A stretch of DNA of 42,173 bases from a virus: positions 1 through 42,173 of the IMG/VR virus record IMGVR_UViG_3300021432_000019. One strand, given 5' to 3'. Both the position numbers and the translations under genes were made by a program. Within the stretch, counting starts at the first letter, position 1. Every line of letters begins with the position of its first letter. Under the pieces are notes generated by a model that ran no database searches, had not been told where the DNA came from, and saw only the letters and a program-made list of their open reading frames with translations. Positions 2,926 through 18,642 of this stretch are shown here, piece by piece.

Positions 2926-3355
2926 ATATGCCCTTCAGTATAATTGTTAAATTTTATAAAAATATTATTTTACAATTAGGTATTTACCATCATTTTGTAA
3001 TTTTGGTGCAGTAAATATCTAGTTTAGCTTATGGTTGCTAGGTATGACCTATTTTGGTGCAAGGGCTAATTCGTGATTTAACGCCCCGCCGCCTAGCCCA
3101 CCATACCCCTATAGCTTGCCCAAAATATCCCTACCCGGCGATCTACAAGCGGCTGGTACAACTCGCCCACCCATCGTTAGAACGTCTTGTATCGCCTCTA
3201 ATGGCTTCCTATAGCCTATTCATATGTGTATACTTGATGGTAGTAAGCCTATGCATGGCTAGCAATGGGATATCAATAGTGATGGACGACCGACCACGAT
3301 GGTGTTATGCTAGGTGTACATCAATGACGATGGCACACAACAAGGAGAATGCAGC
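2926..3355. other. Non-coding upstream part of the recombinase island
   Basis: No convincing gene is seen here. From about 3060 the base composition rises sharply: 34 of the 60 bases in 3061-3120 are G or C, against 18 of 60 in 1861-1920. It holds the direct repeats listed separately. Near 2980-3018 a near-inverted pair, GTATTTAC and GTAAATAT, flanks a T-rich centre. These could be binding sites for the recombinase encoded just downstream. Confidence 0.5.
3000..3061. repeat. Direct repeat ATTTTGGTGCA, two copies
   Basis: The 11-base sequence ATTTTGGTGCA occurs at 3000-3010 and 3051-3061, 51 bp apart, upstream of the serine recombinase gene. Resolvase-type enzymes bind repeated subsites near their own gene, so a res or crossover site is possible but not shown. 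Confidence 0.45.
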
Positions 3356-4039
3356 ATGAAAGCTATTGGCTATTGCAGGGTATCAACAAGGGAGCAAGGA
3401 TTGAGCCGCAATGGGTTAGACGGTCAACGCATGGATATGGAACTGTTTGCAGTATCAAACGATATTGAGCTACTGGATATCGTGTATGAGGTTGCCAGTG
3501 CCAAACTAGACCACACTGACAGACCTGTCCTGGCATCAGTCTTGCAACGTGCTAAGCAACTGAAGTGTGCTGTCATCGTGTCTAAGCTAGACAGGTTCAG
3601 CCGCTCTGTACGCTACATCAGTACAATGATGGAAGTATTGAAGGCTGACCGTATAGGCTTCATCGTTGCCAGTATGGGGTTAGATGTCGATCCTCTTGTC
3701 ATGCACATGTTCGCCTCTATAGCAGAGAATGAAAGGCGTATGATAGGTGTACGTACTAAGGTTGCATTAGCCGCAGTCAAAGCAAAGGGAAAGCAACTAG
3801 GTGCATCAGGTGACAGACTATCGGCAGTGCAGGCAAATGGGCATGCATCGCAACGTCAGCAAGCCATAGCATTCGCTGAGAAAATTAGAATTCCAATTCA
3901 GAAAATGCGAGCCAGGGGAATGACGCAAGCACAGATTGCAGACGAACTAAACGAATACAACACCCCTACAAGCCGTGGTGGCAAGTGGTCAGCCACTCAG
4001 GTATCACGTACGGAAAGACTGCTGAAAATGGCCTTGTAA
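3356..4039 (+). CDS. Serine recombinase (resolvase/invertase type)
   Basis: The 227-residue protein starts with the resolvase N-terminal domain. GYCRVST supplies Arg8 and the nucleophile Ser10. SKLDRFSRS (76-84) holds Asp79, Arg80 and Arg83. AENERRMIGVRT is the long helix E region. The C-terminal 60 residues (MRARGMTQAQIADELNEYN, then TSRGGKWSATQVSR) form a helix-turn-helix DNA-binding part. It catalyses site-specific strand exchange through a Ser-DNA link. The start is ATG 3356 behind AAGGAG. G+C is clearly above the neighbours (29 of 60 bases in 3361-3420), consistent with recent acquisition. The size fits a small resolvase rather than a large serine integrase. Confidence 0.92.
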   Translation: MKAIGYCRVSTREQGLSRNGLDGQRMDMELFAVSNDIELLDIVYEVASAKLDHTDRPVLASVLQRAKQLKCAVIVSKLDRFSRSVRYISTMMEVLKADRIGFIVASMGLDVDPLVMHMFASIAENERRMIGVRTKVALAAVKAKGKQLGASGDRLSAVQANGHASQRQQAIAFAEKIRIPIQKMRARGMTQAQIADELNEYNTPTSRGGKWSATQVSRTERLLKMAL

Positions 4040-4063
4040 GCCTTCTGTATAGAACTATCCTTT

Positions 4064-4086
4064 AAGGGCGCTATATGCGCCTTTTA
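4064..4086 (+). terminator. Rho-independent terminator after the recombinase
   Basis: GGCGC (4067-4071) pairs with GCGCC (4077-4081), extended by a G-T pair and A-T pairs, with a five-base loop, followed by TTTTATTT. It lies 25 bp after the recombinase stop. Confidence 0.75.
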
Positions 4087-4523
4087 TTTCGTCCAATGGT
4101 TTTATATTATCAATTGGTTAACTTATGACGCCCATACATGTATTGTTACTGTATTACAACATCTGGAGGATTAGGCAAGAATTCGCTAGCGCCTATGCAC
4201 ATCTTTTGGCCTATGCAGATTTCCAAAGATTTTTAGGCAAGCTTTACGGATGAAAAGTGGATTTAACCATTTCATACCGAAAAGTGTTTAAAATTAACAT
4301 TATACAATATTGTAAAGTAAACTCATTAGTATACTTTTAATGCAATTCAGTTGCAATTCTATAATTATGCAATCAAATACTTGCGTATGTCATTTTAACA
4401 ACTTACTTTAAGGGAATTAGCAGTCTCGGATAGCCCGTCATAGCAAAATCAATTTGTAGCCATTACAAGGCCATTTATAGACGTTATTTTGAGAGTTTGA
4501 TAGCAACCCAGCCAGAAAGCAGA
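4087..4523. other. Non-coding gap downstream of the recombinase
   Basis: No gene is supported on either strand. It holds short direct repeats at 4171-4241, a repeated GCAATTC pair near 4341-4358, and AT-rich sequence between 4260 and 4380. It separates the rightward recombinase from the leftward genes that end at 4566. Confidence 0.5.
4171..4241. repeat. Two interleaved direct repeats
   Basis: TTAGGCAAG occurs at 4171-4179 and 4233-4241. GCCTATGCA occurs between them at 4191-4199 and 4209-4217, exactly 18 bp apart. The paired and nested layout next to a serine recombinase suggests protein-binding subsites, but this is inference. Confidence 0.45.
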
Positions 4524-4542
4524 AAAGGGCTGAAAAGCCCTT
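4524..4542 (-). terminator. Terminator of the leftward set 4566-5775
   Basis: On the minus strand a perfect seven-base stem, AAGGGCT with AGCCCTT and a four-base loop (4525-4542), is followed by TTCTGC. It lies 24 bp beyond the stop of the last leftward gene. Confidence 0.75.
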
Positions 4543-4565
4543 AGAATTGATGTTAGGAATGTAAT

Positions 4566-4730
4566 TTAGTTAATTCTTTCAGGGTTGACACATATAATTT
4601 TATCCCCTGAAAATTCAATTGTCGATTCATCCTCAAAGATATAAACAACTGTCTGCCAGCCCACTACCCAATCGATACATTTGACTACAGCTTGCAAGCG
4701 GCTTGTAATTGTGTCTGCAATTGTTTTCAT
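4566..4730 (-). CDS. Hypothetical protein (54 aa)
   Basis: The ATG at 4730 has AAGGAAATATC in front and lies downstream of a strong promoter. A longer frame to 4799 would run through that promoter and is rejected. The protein has an amphipathic N-terminal helix and two short beta strands (QTVVYIFED, IEFSGDKIICV). It is not recognised. Confidence 0.65.
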   Translation of the reverse strand: MKTIADTITSRLQAVVKCIDWVVGWQTVVYIFEDESTIEFSGDKIICVNPERIN

Positions 4731-4770
4731 GATATTTCCTTGTTTAAGTGTTTGCCTACCTGATGTCTCA

Positions 4771-4799
4771 AGTATAGGTAACAATAACCTAGCTGTCAA
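4771..4799 (-). promoter_or_regulatory. Sigma70-type promoter, leftward
   Basis: On the minus strand TTGACA (4794-4799), a 17-bp spacer and TATACT (4771-4776) make a near-consensus promoter. It drives the single gene 4566-4730. It also fixes that gene's start at 4730. Confidence 0.85.
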
Positions 4800-4823
4800 G
4801 ACTTTTATGCAGATAATTTAAAC

Positions 4824-5072
4824 TTATTGCTTAGTGATAGTAAAAACCACACTACAGCCATTAGCTTGATTAGTCCACGTCCTGCTACCCTTCACATGAC
4901 AGAAGCCTAAATCGTCTTTAGTAGACTCGCTGGCAGTAAGCTTGTAACTAAAACAATGAGCATCAGCCAATACCCTAGCAGCGCCTTCAATAGCACGTAT
5001 AGCGGCATTCCATGTGCTTTTAGTGTCTGTCCAGCCTATTGTGGACGTTATTAAGAATTGTTCTCGTTTCAT
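4824..5072 (-). CDS. Hypothetical protein (82 aa)
   Basis: The start follows AAGGAATAAATC. A helix rich in Ala (NAAIRAIEGAARVLADAH) lies between polar segments. The C-terminal half looks like beta sheet (CSVVFTITK). Two or three Cys residues are present but no metal motif. No family is recognised. It lies three bases after the preceding gene. Confidence 0.65.
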   Translation of the reverse strand: MKREQFLITSTIGWTDTKSTWNAAIRAIEGAARVLADAHCFSYKLTASESTKDDLGFCHVKGSRTWTNQANGCSVVFTITKQ

Positions 5073-5075
5073 GAT

Positions 5076-5222
5076 TTATTCCTTATTCTTTGCTTGTATC
5101 TTAAATTCCCTATCAGCGCATTTATAACACATTCTAACCCCCTTCATGCTCCACCAAACATAAGAGATAGGAGAATTGTTAAAACGCCTTTTATTGCACT
5201 GCAAACATAATTGTATTTTCAT
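5076..5222 (-). CDS. Small zinc-finger-like protein (48 aa)
   Basis: The protein begins MKIQLCLQCNKRRF and later has MCYKCADREF. The two CxxC pairs, 24 residues apart, are the usual layout of a treble-clef or zinc-ribbon knuckle. A basic Arg/Lys background fits nucleic-acid binding. It starts three bases past the preceding stop and ends three bases before the next start, so coupling is likely. Its ribosome site is weak. Confidence 0.65.
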   Translation of the reverse strand: MKIQLCLQCNKRRFNNSPISYVWWSMKGVRMCYKCADREFKIQAKNKE

Positions 5223-5224
5223 AA

Positions 5225-5611
5225 TTAAAACTTCCAAACATCAATTCCCCACTTAGCAGCTATTTCACGCTTTTTAGCTTCTGCCAGCACTGTAAATTCA
5301 TGATGATAATCTGAAAAGGGTTTGCCTGGACGAATACCAAGTTTATGCGCTTCTTTGATCATATTCTGAGATTTGCAATATTCCATGCTTGATTCGTACT
5401 CACATTTAGCACGATAAACAGCTAATTTCAAAGCATCATCAATTTCTTTCTTAATTTCTTTAGAAGTCTTTCCAGTGTGACGAGTAGCACACACAGAGCC
5501 GTAATGCAGGATATCCCCATCAACATCTACGATGACGGTTGACTTCAGATTAGTTTTACCACAACAATCGCATGTATTCACACTGTCGTCATAACCAAGT
5601 ATTTTATGCAT
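5225..5611 (-). CDS. Zinc-binding hypothetical protein (128 aa)
   Basis: The N-terminal 45 residues hold CDCCGKTNLKSTV, then ILHYGSVCATRHTG. A CxxC knuckle followed by a strand pair and a further Cys-x-x-Arg is a layout I know from short phage and bacterial proteins of unknown role. The rest is helical and Lys-rich (residues 48-95), ending AAKWGIDVWKF. The start follows AAGAGAATATC. Confidence 0.7.
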   Translation of the reverse strand: MHKILGYDDSVNTCDCCGKTNLKSTVIVDVDGDILHYGSVCATRHTGKTSKEIKKEIDDALKLAVYRAKCEYESSMEYCKSQNMIKEAHKLGIRPGKPFSDYHHEFTVLAEAKKREIAAKWGIDVWKF

Positions 5612-5667
5612 GATATTCTCTTTTAGTTAATGTCTAACTCCGATAAACAAATAATAGCTTACTAAAT

Positions 5668-5775
5668 TCAATACCTATGAGAGGTTATAACAGCTAATGC
5701 AGGTAATCCGAATGCAACAGCTAGAACACCTATAATCATCACAGCAATGATTAATTTATCTTTAAATGATTGCAT
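5668..5775 (-). CDS. Small membrane peptide (35 aa)
   Basis: A basic N-terminus (MQSFKDK) precedes one hydrophobic helix (LIIAVMIIGVLAVAFGLPALAV). The ribosome site is CGGAGAT. It is the first gene after the leftward promoter at 5799-5827. Single-pass peptides of this size can be holin-like or regulate membrane enzymes; there is no evidence which. Confidence 0.55.
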   Translation of the reverse strand: MQSFKDKLIIAVMIIGVLAVAFGLPALAVITSHRY

Positions 5776-5798
5776 AATTATCTCCGGTTAGTAATTAC

Positions 5799-5827
5799 AT
5801 CTTATATTAATAAATCCGATAATACAA
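5799..5827 (-). promoter_or_regulatory. Promoter of the leftward set ending at 4542
   Basis: On the minus strand TTGTAT (5822-5827), 17 bp, TAAGAT (5799-5804). The -35 context GCTTGTATTATC is shared with the promoter at 14463-14490, which suggests common control. Confidence 0.6.
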
Positions 5828-5883
5828 GCTCTATCTTCAATATAAATCAGCTATGGCGTCCCAGACGCGGACATACAACATAA

Positions 5884-5915
5884 TTATACTACATTTGTGT
5901 ATATTTGTAGTATAA
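5884..5915. repeat. 10-bp perfect inverted repeat, operator-like
   Basis: TTATACTACA (5884-5893) and TGTAGTATAA (5906-5915) are perfect complements separated by 12 bp. On the minus strand the left arm contains TATAAT (5883-5888), a possible -10. A dimeric repressor or activator could bind here to control leftward transcription. Confidence 0.55.
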
Positions 5916-5987
5916 ACACAACAACAGTAACAATTCCCGTCATAAAACGTCGGTTATATACTGTAAGCGGCTATCTATGATTGTTTG

Positions 5988-6274
5988 CACAAATACAACA
6001 AACAATAGTTCCAATTAGTTAACCAATGAAACATTGCTAATAATTCATTCTAGCACAAACAAATAAGCAGCGCAAGCTGCTATTGTGAAGACATTGCACA
6101 AATAATTAGCTTCGCTAAAGGTAACGTGCAAGCTACTCACAAACAATGTAATTCTCTTATTATTAAGCACGGTACAAACGCATGGCGATAGCCAAGACAT
6201 TGTACACAAACAATAATACCGTACGGTTTAGTAGTCCACAAAGGTAGCGCCTTCGGCTTGTAGCACACAAACAA
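5988..6274 (+). repeat. Iteron-like CACAAACAA repeats
   Basis: Exact CACAAACAA occurs at 6054-6062, 6138-6146, 6205-6213 and 6266-6274. Weaker forms begin at 5988, 6097 and 6237. The first lies inside an inverted pair ATTGTTTG (5980-5987) / CAAACAAT (5999-6006). Two copies share the longer context AAGACATTG-ACAAA (6088-6102 and 6194-6210). All exact copies have the same orientation. Confidence 0.6.
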
Positions 6275-6692
6275 GGATAAGCGAGTAAGGCGAGCACTAA
6301 AGATATTTGTTTCTTTGTATACAAGATTTATATTCTTCTAATAAGAGGAGAGCGAAGCGAACAATTATTAATTATAGCTGATGTGTATAAATAAGCTTAA
6401 GCCGTGCTCTAATAGCCGTTGTGAAAGACACTAGCGAAGCTAAGCAACTTCACATTTCTTATTAGTAGCGTAACAGGAGTTATTTAGTTGAGAATTATTC
6501 TTATTTAAGATTATCTCAGTTAAGAGCAATCGCTACGCTCATAAAGTCAAAAACAACAGCAGGGGTTTTTCTTCGATTAATAGACTATATGTAAGGGTTA
6601 GCTCGCTGCGCTCGCTTTCTAAGATTGCTATACCGTAATTAAGTTAATCGTTATACTCATATTTATATTTTTAAGTTGTGTGCAATATATTG

Positions 6693-6720
6693 TTGCTTTA
6701 CAAGTTATTTATGGTATAAT
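6693..6720 (+). promoter_or_regulatory. Extended -10 promoter for gene 6739
   Basis: TTGCTT (6693-6698), 16 bp, then TGG-TATAAT (-10 at 6715-6720). It matches the promoter at 47-74 over the -35 and the block TTTATGGTA. The mRNA leader would be very short, about 12 bases before the ATG. Confidence 0.75.
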
Positions 6721-6738
6721 ATACTTTTAAGGGATATT

Positions 6739-7398
6739 ATGATAGATAAAGTTAAAGCAATACAACTAAGACAAGAAGGTAACACTTATGAAGCAATCGC
6801 TAACATTTTAAACTGTTCAGTAGCTTGGTGCAAGAAAAACTTAACAGGCATTGAAAAGAACTCTATAAAGCCTGTTGAAACTAAGCCTAAGCGCTTTATA
6901 AGAACTTGTATTACAAATGAAGATGGAACCATTACAGCCGCTAGGCTAAATATAGCTACAGGTGAAATTAAGCCATTTCGGTATGATAAACCAGAATTAA
7001 TAATTATACCGAAAGGTGTAATGAACACAACTAAAGACCCTTTTTGGATGTCAACGCCTATAGCTGGCGAAAGAGAATCTATTACTGAAAGGCAACTCAG
7101 AATTAGTCAGGAAAATAAAAGTTGCTATAAGTTAACTAATTATGTCTCTTTGGAAGATGCCAAAGAAGATTTTACTTTCTTAGATAACCTACTGGTCGGT
7201 GTAAGTAATTTAGGAAGCTCTAATGAGGTTAGCCACAATTTGATGTTCGGTATGCTTAGGGATTTATCCTATATCAATTTTGAAAGTATAAAAACTTATA
7301 CAGGATTTAGTGACACGTTCTGCCATAAGCTTGCAACTCAATTAAGGGTACTTGACAATGCTTTTAGTTCAGCTATCACGAAAAATAATATACTATAA
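6739..7398 (+). CDS. Helix-turn-helix protein of unknown function (219 aa)
   Basis: Residues 2-35 (KAIQLRQEGNTYEAIANILN, then CSVAWCKKNL) form a homeodomain-like helix-turn-helix, as in small phage regulators and terminase N-termini. A Lys/Pro-rich linker (residues 40-55) follows. The remaining 160 residues are not recognised and look mixed alpha/beta, ending in a helical part. The start is ATG 6739, with AAGGGATATT in front. Being alone behind the promoter at 6693 and beside the control region, it could regulate that region or act in replication initiation; this is inference. Confidence 0.7.
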   Translation: MIDKVKAIQLRQEGNTYEAIANILNCSVAWCKKNLTGIEKNSIKPVETKPKRFIRTCITNEDGTITAARLNIATGEIKPFRYDKPELIIIPKGVMNTTKDPFWMSTPIAGERESITERQLRISQENKSCYKLTNYVSLEDAKEDFTFLDNLLVGVSNLGSSNEVSHNLMFGMLRDLSYINFESIKTYTGFSDTFCHKLATQLRVLDNAFSSAITKNNIL

Positions 7399-7460
7399 TC
7401 TCTTTATATAGGCGGTTAGGAATTGATTTCTTGGAGATTGGCTTTAGGTAACACTCTCCT

Positions 7461-7484
7461 TGTTAGCGAACACTAACATTTTAC
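7461..7484 (+). terminator. Weak terminator-like hairpin after gene 6739
   Basis: TGTTAG (7461-7466) pairs with CTAACA (7473-7478) across six bases, followed by TTTTAC. The stem is short and AT-rich, so efficiency is doubtful. The right arm overlaps a possible -35 of the next promoter. Confidence 0.3.
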
Positions 7485-7500
7485 AAATACATGGTATATT
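7473..7500 (+). promoter_or_regulatory. Possible extended -10 promoter for the GIY-YIG gene
   Basis: ATGG-TATATT (-10 at 7495-7500) shares the TATGGTA-like core of the promoters at 69 and 6715. The -35 (CTAACA, 7473-7478) is weak with a 16-bp spacer. It lies about 45 bp before the gene at 7545. Confidence 0.4.
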
Positions 7501-7544
7501 TTATGCTTAGCATTACTAGGCTATTTTTGTTTGAAAGGTAATAA

Positions 7545-8024
7545 ATGTTGTCACAGTCTATGTACGATCAAGAACAATTTCAAGATTTACATTTCTGGTT
7601 CAGAAGATGTGGGTATGTAGTTCCCAGGGAAGGTAACGGGGAGTATTACGTATATATAGCTACTGATGAAGCTAATACTATTATTTACATAGGTAGTGGT
7701 AAGGGTGAGAGATATAAACATGTTACGTCAGGAATTTCTCACAATAAAATGTTAAATAAACTTTATTTTAGCGGAGAAACTCTTTCTGTGAATGCTTACA
7801 GGGTAGATTTAACTAAAAATGAGGCTATGGAGTTAGAAAGACAACTTACAGAGTTTACAAATCCAGCCGCAAATCTTAAAAATAAAACCGTTCAAGGTGC
7901 AAGCCGTTACAATAAGTCTCCAATGATGTTGTTCATAGAATTTGGCGAAACAGTTTATAATAGGTACAAAAACAAGGATGCCCCACAACTACCTGTAAAT
8001 ATGGATTGGACACTTAAACACTGA
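7545..8024 (+). CDS. GIY-YIG endonuclease
   Basis: The 159-residue protein carries a GIY-YIG nuclease core: EYYVYIATDE (residues 33-42, YVY for GIY), IIYIGSGKG (46-54, YIG), Arg56 in GERYKHV, and the Glu cluster NEAMELERQL (92-101) expected to bind the metal, then NPAANLKN. Such proteins nick or cut DNA and are often free-standing homing enzymes in phages. The start follows AAAGGTAATAA. It converges with and overlaps by 11 bp a truncated P-loop gene (8014-8103), suggesting it replaced part of another gene. Confidence 0.82.
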   Translation: MLSQSMYDQEQFQDLHFWFRRCGYVVPREGNGEYYVYIATDEANTIIYIGSGKGERYKHVTSGISHNKMLNKLYFSGETLSVNAYRVDLTKNEAMELERQLTEFTNPAANLKNKTVQGASRYNKSPMMLFIEFGETVYNRYKNKDAPQLPVNMDWTLKH

Positions 8025-8103
8025 GTGCTAAGCTTTCAATATAGCGTAACGCTGCATAGCTCTTACCATTTCCCATAAGAGAATCAATCACTTCTATCTG
8101 CAT
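8014..8103 (-). pseudogene. Truncated P-loop ATPase (29-aa stub)
   Basis: The frame begins MQIEVIDSLMGNGKSYAALR and stops after 29 residues. MGNGKS is a Walker A motif, and the start looks like phage helicases and other P-loop ATPases whose N-termini read IDxxMGxGKT. It has a good ribosome site (AAGGAATTAC) and a near-consensus promoter, so the 5' end is intact while the rest of the ATPase is missing. The loss point lies at the end of the converging GIY-YIG gene. It may be a leftover, though a functional short peptide cannot be excluded. Confidence 0.6.
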
Positions 8104-8132
8104 GTAATTCCTTTATTGTGTACAAATAGAGT

Positions 8133-10419: not shown

Positions 10420-10611
10420 CTAGTATTTCACATTCTTGAAAGTTTCAGTGTTTGAGTTATATTCAAATGTGGCATCACCCGACGTAATTGTTATGCTATC
10501 TGCGTCATCATTAGGATAATTTCTAAAATGATTAGCTATACAAATAGCTTGGTCAAGTGTAATGTCAAAAGCCATTATGTGCCCATTACGTTTAAGTGTG
10601 TAAGTTTTCAT
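10420..10611 (-). CDS. Hypothetical protein (63 aa)
   Basis: The protein reads MKTYTLKRNGHIMAFDITLD, then a helix (QAICIANHFRNYP), then beta strands (SITITSG and ATFEYN). The beta-helix-beta pattern suggests a small compact fold. No family is recognised. It starts two bases after the preceding stop. Confidence 0.65.
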   Translation of the reverse strand: MKTYTLKRNGHIMAFDITLDQAICIANHFRNYPNDDADSITITSGDATFEYNSNTETFKNVKY

Positions 10612-10613
10612 GA

Positions 10614-10919
10614 TTATTTCTCGAAATGTTTTAAATTAACTAGGCATTTTCCATCAGATGTTACAACAGCACCTATGAAAAGATTTTGATCAGGGCGCAT
10701 TAATGTTCTGGTCACATATTTTTTATCTTCCAATGTAAATTTCAACATTTTAAAGTTGGCTTGGTAAACTTCAAAACTATCCGCTTGAACATAGACAATT
10801 TTTGTTTGTTTTTGTTTAGGCGCTACCTTTTTAATGCATGTGTAACCATAAGCAAGACCATTGTAAAATTGCGGCATTGTGACATCTGCTCCACAACATG
10901 CACATTGAATAACTTTCAT
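10614..10919 (-). CDS. Hypothetical protein with CxxC knuckle (101 aa)
   Basis: The chosen ATG at 10919 is downstream of the promoter at 10964-10991; a longer frame to 10973 runs into the -10 and is rejected. The N-terminus MKVIQCACCGADVTM has a CACC pair and a further Cys in YTCIKK, a likely zinc knuckle. The second half is beta-rich (KIVYVQADSFEVYQ, LFIGAVV). It is the first gene of its operon. Confidence 0.65.
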   Translation of the reverse strand: MKVIQCACCGADVTMPQFYNGLAYGYTCIKKVAPKQKQTKIVYVQADSFEVYQANFKMLKFTLEDKKYVTRTLMRPDQNLFIGAVVTSDGKCLVNLKHFEK

Positions 10920-10963
10920 GATAACCGCCCTGTTAAGAATTAATATTGCCCTGCCATGAACAC

Positions 10964-10991
10964 AGAATAGCACATACAGAATTTATGTCAA
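10964..10991 (-). promoter_or_regulatory. Sigma70-type promoter, leftward operon 10919-8228
   Basis: On the minus strand TTGACA (10986-10991), 16 bp, TATTCT (10964-10969), about 45 bp before the ATG at 10919. Confidence 0.85.
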
Positions 10992-11033
10992 GCTGTTTTA
11001 TAAAATAAATTTAAAATGTTTAGACAAAATAAA

Positions 11034-11062
11034 AGGAGCTATACAAATTAATGTATGCTCCT
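11034..11062 (-). terminator. Terminator of the leftward operon ending at 11144
   Basis: On the minus strand AGGAGC-ATAC pairs with GTAT-(A)-GCTCCT with an eight-base loop and one bulge, followed by TTTATTTTG. It separates the operon starting at 12201 from the promoter at 10964. Confidence 0.8.
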
Positions 11063-11143
11063 AATCTTTAAAACCTATTTAGAACGCAGTAAATAGGAAT
11101 ACTAATACACAGAAATATAAGTATACAATAACCAATCATATAC

Positions 11144-11482
11144 TTACTCATTAATTGCTTTCAAACTAGCTAGCCGCTCCGCTACAGCAGCCTTGTCATA
11201 TTCCTTGCCATCAATTGTAATTGTTTCTGGCTTAGGCTGTATTTCCTTAACAATAACTTCTGTTGTGAATGTATGTTCTGTATGCGAATGTCCTTTATAA
11301 TAATCATCTGGTACACAATAGATATTACCATCTGCATATGTAGAGATATTTGGAAAGTTGTCACTATAGTTTTCAATGCTTCGTCCTGTACTCCGCCACT
11401 GATAACCCAGACTGAACAAATACTTCTGCAAAGCTTCGCTATCTTGAGCGTTATTTACACGAAATTTCATAGCTTTGAACAT
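11144..11482 (-). CDS. Hypothetical protein (112 aa)
   Basis: ATG 11482 (MFKAMKFRVN) has AAGGAAACTAGA in front; an upstream ATG at 11497 lacks a site. The first 65 residues have the pattern KFRVNNAQDSEALQKYLFSL, GYQW, then ADGNIYCV. I know this pattern from small phage proteins of unknown function: a strand, a helix ending in GYxW, then strands. The C-terminal TITIDGKEYDKAAVAERLAS is a separate short motif. Confidence 0.7.
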   Translation of the reverse strand: MFKAMKFRVNNAQDSEALQKYLFSLGYQWRSTGRSIENYSDNFPNISTYADGNIYCVPDDYYKGHSHTEHTFTTEVIVKEIQPKPETITIDGKEYDKAAVAERLASLKAINE

Positions 11483-13114: not shown

Positions 13115-13191
13115 TGGCATGTCTAACAGGACTCGAACCTGTGACCCTTAGCTTAGAAGGCTAATGCTCTATCCACCTGAGCTATAGACAT
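13115..13191 (-). tRNA. tRNA-Arg (anticodon UCU) with encoded CCA
   Basis: On the minus strand all arms fit. The acceptor is ATGTCTA/TAGACAT (7 bp). The D arm is GCTC/GAGC with loop AGGTGGATA. The anticodon arm is TTAGC/GCTAA with loop CTTCTAA, giving anticodon TCT. The variable loop is GGGTC. The T arm is ACAGG/CCTGT with loop TTCGAGT. The discriminator G is followed by an encoded CCA (13115-13117). It reads AGA codons, which are frequent in AT-rich phage genes. Confidence 0.95.
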
Positions 13192-13197
13192 ATTATT

Positions 13198-13551: not shown

Positions 13552-14307
13552 TTAATAATTCTCGGCTTCAATGCGAGTGATGAAAAAATGGATTCCACCG
13601 GAACATTCTATTGTCCAATCTTCACCCCATTTATCACAATGTACAGTTTCACCAACTACATATGTAGTTTTACCATCATGTTGACTAATTCCCTCAGCAA
13701 CAATATTTCCTTGAATGTCGCAGACAGATAATACTTTAGCATACTCAGCACGGCATTTTCTCCCCATTGCATGACAACGTTTCGCAGAGGAGGGAATCAA
13801 AAGTTTTACAATAATATTGTCTCTACATTTTTTAAAACCTATAACGTCACCCTCATCAGGTAAGATACGTGTTTGTGCGATTAAAAGCGTTGCATTGATA
13901 GCACCGGACAAATTAGTACCGGACAAATTAGCACCGGACAAATTAGTACCGGACAAATCAGCACCGTACAAATTAGTACGGGACAAATTAGCACCGGACA
14001 AATTAGTACCGGACAAATCAGCACCGGACAAATTAGCACCGTACAAATTAGTACCGGACAAATCAGCACCGTACAAATTAGCACCGTACAAATTAGTACG
14101 GGACAAATCAGCACCGTACAAATTAGTACGGGACAAATTAGCACCGGACAAATTAGTACCGGACAAATCAGCACCGGACAAATTAGCACCGGACAAATTA
14201 GCACCGGCTGCTATAGCTGCAATTAATGTAAGAGCTACAGTATTTTTGCTAACATTGTGAGAGAAAATTACACTAGCATTAAAACGATGTTTGATTTCGA
14301 TCAGCAT
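13552..14307 (-). CDS. Pentapeptide-repeat protein with DUF5758-like C-terminus
   Basis: A 35-residue N-terminal part is followed by about 20 uninterrupted pentapeptides of the form A(N/D)LSG, with variants TNLSG, TNLYG and ADLSR. This makes a right-handed square beta-helix about 100 residues long. The C-terminal 95 residues (KCRAEYAKVLSVCDIQGNIV, then GGIHFFITRIEAENY) match my memory of the DUF5758 domain that follows pentapeptides in phage proteins. Some pentapeptide proteins mimic DNA and bind gyrase; whether this one does is unknown. The start is ATG 14307 (GGAT in front) rather than TTG 14319. Confidence 0.85.
   Translation of the reverse strand: MLIEIKHRFNASVIFSHNVSKNTVALTLIAAIAAGANLSGANLSGADLSGTNLSGANLSRTNLYGADLSRTNLYGANLYGADLSGTNLYGANLSGADLSGTNLSGANLSRTNLYGADLSGTNLSGANLSGTNLSGAINATLLIAQTRILPDEGDVIGFKKCRDNIIVKLLIPSSAKRCHAMGRKCRAEYAKVLSVCDIQGNIVAEGISQHDGKTTYVVGETVHCDKWGEDWTIECSGGIHFFITRIEAENY
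13901..14207. repeat. Twenty tandem 15-bp repeats coding the pentapeptides
   Basis: The 15-base unit GCACCGGACAAATTA, with a few recurrent variants (gtacc, gtacg, gtaca), repeats about 20 times. The near-identity at DNA level shows recent expansion or repeated conversion. Copy number could vary between isolates by slippage. It is a coding repeat, not a CRISPR. Confidence 0.9.
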
Positions 14308-14346
14308 TTTATTATCCAATAAGAATGTTATAAATAATTATGGACA

Positions 14347-14901: not shown

Positions 14902-14989
14902 GATTGTCCCCCTTAAAAAGAATTATAAATAAGTGTTTTAAAATAAATCATTTTGTGTTAGAGAAAATTAGGCTTGTCGCCTGATTCGT

Positions 14990-15018
14990 AATGTAGAACA
15001 AGTCATTAGCATAGTCAA
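14990..15018 (-). promoter_or_regulatory. Promoter for gene 14527-14901
   Basis: On the minus strand TTGACT (15013-15018), 17 bp, TACATT (14990-14995). Confidence 0.7.
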
Positions 15019-15120
15019 GGAAAAATTAAAAGGGCAAACGTAAAACAATGTAACAATTAATTTGTTATATAGGGAATTGAAATAAAGGTATTGTGCATAT
15101 ACAACAAATTTAAAATAAAT

Positions 15121-15148
15121 TTGACAGATGATTAAATATGTCTTATAG
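15121..15148 (+). promoter_or_regulatory. Orphan rightward promoter-like sequence
   Basis: TTGACA (15121-15126), 16 bp, TTATAG (15143-15148) on the plus strand, with a hairpin shortly after (15161-15173). No rightward gene follows, so it is either chance or makes a short or antisense RNA. Confidence 0.3.
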
Positions 15149-15215
15149 TGGATTCATTAGCGCTGCTTCAGCGGTTAATTAAGTAGAGGTATTGTCTATC
15201 GCTTATGCTCAAAAC

Positions 15216-15241
15216 AATAAATAAAAGCCGCTTTCGCGGCT
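15216..15241 (-). terminator. Terminator after gene 15247
   Basis: On the minus strand AGCCGC-GAAA-GCGGCT (15226-15241), a six-base stem with a GNRA loop, is followed by TTTATTTATT. It lies six bases after the last stop of the operon 16070-15247. Confidence 0.88.
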
Positions 15242-15246
15242 CTATA

Positions 15247-18277: not shown

Positions 18278-18310
18278 CAAATTCTCTCCTAAATTATTAA
18301 CGACAACAGG

Positions 18311-18338
18311 ATGATAACACAAATTTAAAATCGTGCAA
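18311..18338 (-). promoter_or_regulatory. Leftward promoter at the 18.3-kb divide
   Basis: On the minus strand TTGCAC (18333-18338), 16 bp, TATCAT (18311-18316). It is back to back with the rightward promoter at 18362. Confidence 0.7.
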
Positions 18339-18361
18339 GAGAAATGTTTAAAAATATTTTA

Positions 18362-18389
18362 TTGACTTTTATTTTAATCAGAGTAGTAT
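18362..18389 (+). promoter_or_regulatory. Rightward promoter at the 18.3-kb divide
   Basis: TTGACT (18362-18367), 16 bp, TAGTAT (18384-18389). It is about 45 bp before the start at 18433 and opens the large rightward set. Confidence 0.65.
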
Positions 18390-18432
18390 AGGTAATACAG
18401 CTATGTGGCTGACTAACGTTTAGGAGAATAAC

Positions 18433-18642
18433 ATGGATATTTTTGTACTTGTACTATATTTAGGACTTGCAGCGGTGACTACGCCACCTAGCCATTCCTT
18501 TGCCTTTGTGTCTGAACATAAAACATTAGTTAGCTGTGCAACGGCTATAGAGAAAGTTAAAGCTGACCCAGATGTGAGTGATAAAATCAAAGCTAATATT
18601 GGGTGTTTTAGGCTTCATATCGAAGCTACGAAAGATGCTTAA
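18433..18642 (+). CDS. Small exported or membrane-anchored protein (69 aa)
   Basis: AGGAGAATAAC precedes the ATG. The N-terminus (MDIFVLVLYLGLAAVTTPPS) is hydrophobic and could be a signal anchor, although the positive charge normally before it is missing. The remainder (SEHKTLVSCATAIEKVKADP) is a soluble helix with two Cys. No family is recognised. Confidence 0.65.
   Translation: MDIFVLVLYLGLAAVTTPPSHSFAFVSEHKTLVSCATAIEKVKADPDVSDKIKANIGCFRLHIEATKDA

Follow-up and report, generated by a model that had tools for sequence, protein, structure and literature searches.

A gene-free, repeat-bearing region of a phage genome as a possible genome terminus

The gene-free region and its setting

The window, by which we mean the whole stretch of DNA that was analysed, is an IMG/VR virus record (IMGVR_UViG_3300021432_000019) of 42,173 bases, a contig that is itself a fragment. 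Its left end carries PhoH and ClpP-like genes with a serine recombinase gene further along; a block of small minus-strand genes includes a tRNA-Arg gene (13115-13191), and from 18.4 kb a plus-strand replication block encodes a primase-helicase of the T7 type and a DNA polymerase of family A. The main strand switches lie near 4.0-4.6 kb, 8.0-8.2 kb and 18.3 kb. The DNA polymerase shares 54% identity with its counterpart in Aeromonas phage PAc, 47% with those of PseuGes_254 and the KPP10-like Pseudomonas phages, and up to 83% with those of uncultured relatives; a polymerase search of genome contigs returned no relative. As judged from their sequences, the DNA polymerase and primase-helicase group the window phage with PAc, PseuGes_254 and the KPP10-like phages. 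The features in and around the largest gene-free gap are as follows.

3314-4039, plus strand: serine recombinase (Resolvase N-terminal domain), marking the strand-switch zone in relatives
4040-4565: 526-nt gene-free gap at a plus-to-minus switch (gene finder), with terminator-like sites on both sides
5668-5775, minus strand: small hydrophobic ORF of 35 codons with a GGAG ribosome site, the left bound of the region (gene finder and sequence reading)
5776-6738: gene-free region (gene finder), proposed genome-terminus or control region, the terminus role suggested by relatives
6052-6216, plus strand: best-folding segment, z -3.47 with 0 of 300 shuffles as low (minus strand z -1.60)
6054-6274, plus strand only: four copies of CACAAACAA, at 6054, 6138, 6205 and 6266 (spacing 84, 67 and 61 nt)
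6088-6206, plus strand: AAGACATTG[C/T]ACA module, copies starting at 6088 and 6194, 77% identical over 22 nt
6382-6390, minus strand: single exact DnaA-box match, TTATACACA
6697-6725, plus strand: predicted sigma-70-like promoter, TTTACA-17-TATACT, matching the consensus at 10 of 12 positions, 13 bp ahead of the next gene's ATG
6739-7398, plus strand: 219-aa protein with an N-terminal helix-turn-helix-like (HTH-like) stretch (Pfam HTH_23 at E 0.015 only)
7545-8024: GIY-YIG nuclease-like ORF (Pfam E 1.6e-4, narrowly missing the curated cut-off)

A gene finder based on codon usage predicts no gene at 5776-6738, and at 963 nt this is the largest (rank 1) gene-free gap in the window. An initial annotation had described 5828-6692, which lies inside this gap, as a gene-free region between diverging gene sets, and both points hold: the genes at 4566-5775 are on the minus strand and those at 6739-8024 on the plus strand, with the qualification that both blocks are short and local. 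Its further remark that the genome has almost no other gaps was overstated, since others of 530, 526 and 480 nt are present in the window. A search for convincing ORFs between 5776 and 6738 found none, the ORFs present being TTG-initiated, 53-54 aa long and confined to the minus strand, and a protein-coding reading was dropped because no ORF is supported. The region had also been called AT-rich, which its composition does not bear out: GC content is 34.1%, against 36.1% for the window, and 40-nt stretches of at least 90% AT number 0 in the region and 26 elsewhere in the window.

The 219-aa protein has distant N-terminal relatives only, and relatives of its HTH-like stretch are found near the strand switch in three related genomes (G003, G007 and G021). 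From its sequence, the GIY-YIG nuclease-like ORF beside the region is plausibly a homing endonuclease. The layout common to the relatives runs from PhoH through ClpP (and an HTH gene), the serine recombinase and a gene-free gap to the small minus-strand genes, and the syntenic switch gaps are recurrent, at 0.4-1.5 kb. Most relatives have the serine recombinase next to the strand switch, but its orientation varies; it is on the plus strand in the window, G002, G006, G019 and G027, and on the minus strand in G001, G003, G007, G017, G021 and G033. In the window, the 4040-4565 gap competes with the region as the possible counterpart of the switch gap in the relatives. Around the recombinase gene's end and the gap after it there are perfect inverted repeats of 14 nt (4026-4039/4463-4476) and 15 nt (4361-4375/5767-5781), which may be recombination sites or may be due to chance. 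The idea of a segment inverted by the serine recombinase was dropped, as these short repeats fail to frame the region convincingly.

No homologue of the region was found by blastn in phages and plasmids, nor in the relatives' genomes, and relatives of the neighbouring gene at 5225-5611 lack the region. Two repeat-based pattern scans of IMG/VR gave 32 loci, essentially coding low-complexity sequence or unrelated tandem repeats, and nine unrelated matches; an exact 22-mer from the region gave 0 matches in IMG/VR. Between 5600 and 6800, no Rfam family matched beyond chance, with nothing convincing even at E 5, nor did the covariance models of GOLLD, ROOL or the other Rfam families for large structured RNAs of phages match there, and the region contains no tRNA. 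Because no homologue was found, novelty at the level of sequence is high, while novelty of mechanism is low on present evidence; missing homologues in the searched databases do not mean absence in nature.

Repeats, hairpins and folding

The spaced repeats reported in the initial annotation are well supported. CACAAACAA occurs four times where 0.01 occurrences are expected, and ACAAACAA, with all copies on the plus strand, five times where 0.06 are expected (1000 dinucleotide shuffles in each case); GCGAAGC/GCTTCGC is found three times against 0.10 expected in shuffles, and AAGACA three times against 0.30. These motifs were picked after inspection of the sequence, but an unselected test gives the same picture, with the commonest 8-mer and 9-mer in the region also beating 300 of 300 shuffles. 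Near 6425 there is in addition GAAAGACACTAGCG, which is related to the AAGACATTG[C/T]ACA module. Conservation of the repeats in relatives had been named beforehand as a check, but neither the relatives searched, nor phage and plasmid records, nor the IMG/VR pattern scans yielded them.

The small GC hairpins that had been noted do not significantly exceed chance, with five perfect hairpins against 3.7 expected. Short-range folding of the region gives z -1.7 on the plus strand and -1.2 on the minus strand; longer-range folding of the plus strand is moderately better than that of shuffles (z about -2.5 to -3.5), and when 908 nt of the region are folded the plus strand reaches z -3.3 (20 shuffles) and the minus strand -0.8. 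The best-folding segment, 6052-6216, contains three hairpins, AGCAGC-gcaa-GCTGCT, TTGCAC..TTAGC-ttc-GCTAA..GTGCAA and GTACAA..TGGC-gata-GCCA..TTGTAC, set apart by A/C-rich linkers. The structure signal is suggestive only, because about 4% of 160-nt windows slid over 3.9-18.7 kb lie beyond z -3 on either strand. The strongest folds of the scan, on both strands, are those of a minus-strand ORF at 13552-14319, whose 15-nt tandem repeats span about 450 nt and suggest that it encodes a pentapeptide-repeat protein. A 345-nt gap at 14902-15246 contains five perfect hairpins against 1.1 expected, a number reached by 0 of 150 shuffles, and these include the terminator-like GCCGCTTTCGCGGC.

A possible terminus and the competing explanations

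The region is real and is probably a functional non-coding element of a known kind. The initial annotation's description of it as a control region is reasonable, and such a role is plausible but fairly ordinary. Judging from its position by analogy with related phages, our leading but tentative interpretation, to which we give somewhat less than an even chance, is that it is the non-coding terminus and control zone of a phage resembling the Vandenendeviridae or Ounavirinae. The linear genome would begin and end here, with a short direct terminal repeat and the packaging start beside a switch in transcription strand. The region would act as DNA: terminase would cut the concatemer within or beside it, genes would be kept clear of the cut, and proteins would bind the short structured and repeated elements during packaging and possibly when replication of the ends is begun or completed. 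We infer both the placement of the terminus in the region and each step of this cutting mechanism.

The region adjoins the recombinase/HTH switch zone that is conserved in relatives, and it fits the relatives' termini in size, rank and neighbourhood, being 963 nt long with a GIY-YIG homing-type nuclease alongside. Several observations count against a terminus. The region has no sequence similarity to any mapped terminus; the plus-to-minus switch proper is the 4040-4565 gap, five minus-strand genes away, so that the counterpart is ambiguous; the terminus of PAK_P3 lies away from the switch; perfect hairpins are not significantly enriched in the region, unlike the arrays at the ends of PaP1, KIL1 and PAK_P3; and the window contig is a fragment. 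The contig ends of relatives had been considered as terminus markers and were set aside as uninformative, since most are overlaps left by the assembler, no longer than 127 nt.

The most probable of the alternatives, though we consider it unlikely, is that this is an ordinary spacer, a mosaic junction of recombined gene blocks that has no one function and contains promoters, terminators and the remains of decayed genes. The lack of sequence conservation agrees with this, as do the mixture of small blocks, the nearby genes for a serine recombinase and a GIY-YIG nuclease, and the occurrence of the neighbouring genes' relatives in other contexts. Against it, a rough gene finder puts about 85% of the phage in coding sequence, and drift would hardly yield a strand-specific 9-mer in four copies within about 220 nt.

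A replication origin, as the initial annotation had proposed, seems to us a little less probable still. An initiator would bind the CACAAACAA repeats, or host DnaA would bind, and the hairpins would form on melted strands. The repeats are indeed far above chance, and the GCGAAGC-type mini-hairpins, of which the region has three against 0.10 expected, occur in single-strand phage origins. The switch gaps of four relatives moreover contain DnaA boxes: those of G001, G007 and G017 have a TTATCCACA-NNN-TTATCCACA pair, exactly 3 nt apart, with further boxes (four of the five genomic TTATCCACA copies of G001 being in its switch gap), and that of G019 has an inverted trio. These clusters, at 6808-6869 of L042 (G001) and, in the oriented sequences, at 6449-6512 of G007, 8079-8119 of G017 and 13148-13196 of G019, are candidate origins on sequence grounds; no DnaA boxes were found in the gaps of G002, G006, G021, G027, G030, G033 and PAc.

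The window itself contains no DnaA-box cluster, exact TTATNCACA occurring only twice and unclustered, and the region has no AT-rich unwinding stretch; plus-strand CACA sites score little above background (2.0 against 1.7, of 4); and the repeats are not seen in relatives. Degenerate DnaA boxes inside the CACAAACAA units were dropped as little above background. The cumulative GC skew, which had been named as a check, peaks at about 4.2 kb and reaches its minimum at about 18.3 kb, before a long rise, with only a small local turn at 5.8-6.7 kb, although this test is weak because skew in the phage follows gene direction. Of the checks named in the initial annotation, skew and repeat conservation thus lean against an origin. 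The skew minimum coincides with a narrow divergent gap at 18278-18433, which corresponds in position to the origin that software predicted for PseuGes_254, next to the primase operon (PMC11512268). With the skew extreme elsewhere, no box cluster and the repeats unseen in relatives, an origin is unsupported for the window's own sequence; it is possible for the neighbourhood or zone, because the corresponding switch gap of several relatives has a DnaA-box cluster.

Least probable of those considered, and in our view doubtful, is a structured non-coding plus-strand RNA of about 0.2-0.6 kb with hairpin modules on unpaired A/C-rich CACAAACAA linkers: the plus strand folds better than the minus (z -3.3 against -0.8 over 908 nt, and -3.5, with 0/300 shuffles, against -1.6 over 6052-6216) and the CACAAACAA repeats and AAGACATTG modules are on the plus strand only, but such an RNA would be known from one sequence, Rfam offers nothing convincing, z of about -3 occurs elsewhere in the window, the palindromes of the relatives' termini fold on both strands, gp113, the gene at the PAK_P3 terminus, shows essentially no transcription (PMC4933390), and the nearest good promoter is downstream, at 6697. 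That it is specifically an undescribed RNA of the terminus zone of a Felix O1/PaP1-like phage, with AAGACATTG-motif internal-loop hairpins and CACAAACAA linkers, we regard as slightly more remote again.

Comparison with phages of known or predicted ends

Returning to the terminus interpretation, isolates with mapped or predicted ends point, by analogy, to a terminus at least as strongly as to an origin, and the related phages suggest that the region marks the genome end and packaging site, with a replication start nearby also possible. The ends of PseuGes_254 and, in the 78 kb viewed, of PAK_P3 lie in the largest annotated gene-free stretch, and the region is likewise the largest in the window, a pattern that is drawn from the relatives here and is not a published one. 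PaP1 has a 1190-bp terminal repeat by run-off sequencing, and its authors also used skew to place a putative origin at the end of the genome (PMC3652863); its sequenced ends lie in a comparable gene-poor zone with an HNH endonuclease. Adele has a terminal redundancy of 1165 bp (PMC12846349), and the KIL1 record opens in a gap of this kind. In PAK_P3, no gap in the annotated 1-78 kb is larger than that of 921 nt at 62818-63738, which corresponds to gp113, described as the 'predicted genome terminus' (PMC4933390).

The genome-end regions of PaP1 (NC_019913, 90068-91715), KIL1 (NC_030934, 89383-90552) and PAK_P3 (NC_022970, 62818-63738) contain arrays of perfect palindromic hairpins, with z of about 4 to 11; the KIL1 end has 19 against 4.7 expected and that of PAK_P3 14 against 2.3 at a stricter threshold. 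The PaP1 paper reported no complicated secondary structure (PMC3652863), despite the hairpin array found here. Coding controls are mildly raised in PaP1 (12 against 5.7) and not raised in KIL1 and PAK_P3. The gaps of M1 and G027 are likewise dense in small perfect palindromic hairpins; in G027 (oriented, L100) the gap after the recombinase, at 10601-11297, has 18 in 697 nt against 6.2 expected, with GGCGCC-type palindromes recurring about 270 nt apart. The region in the window resembles these hairpin-dense ends by eye but not by count (5 against 3.7), a dense array being, again, not a published criterion for a terminus. Palindrome-packed termini in cultured phages and DnaA-box pairs at the same switch gap in several uncultured ones would, if the region is the terminus, make a link between packaging end and replication start directly testable.

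The window phage shares with G001, G007 and G017 a gene-free stretch at a recombinase-marked strand switch, but the paired TTATCCACA boxes are theirs and there are none in the window. Among the Pakpunavirus phages with known terminal redundancy, PaP1 and Adele, PaP1 shares with it a gene-poor zone of similar length, accompanied by a homing-type endonuclease; the window lacks the dense perfect palindromic hairpins of the PaP1 end (23 against 5.6 expected). The Nankokuvirus PAK_P3 likewise has its gene-free gap of 921 nt, the largest in the 78 kb viewed, but this gap is hairpin-dense and lies inside a plus-strand block rather than at a switch. Because of this, the rule suggested by the comparison is 'largest gene-free stretch' and not strictly 'switch'; if the terminus interpretation is true, genome ends in uncultured members would be sought in the largest gene-free stretch near a strand switch.

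In PseuGes_254 (vB_PseuGesM_254), PhageTerm identified a terminal repeat of 628 bp (PMC11512268), and we verified an exact end repeat of that length in its record. This repeat lies in the largest annotated gene-free stretch, of about 1.1 kb, at a plus-to-minus switch between a ClpP/ligase gene set and a small-gene set. There is no sequence similarity between this stretch and the region, PseuGes_254 lacks the CACAAACAA array, and its terminus is mapped whereas that of the window is inferred; the two phages are nonetheless alike in their related DNA polymerases (47% identity), their similar gene order and their possession of a largest gene-free stretch.
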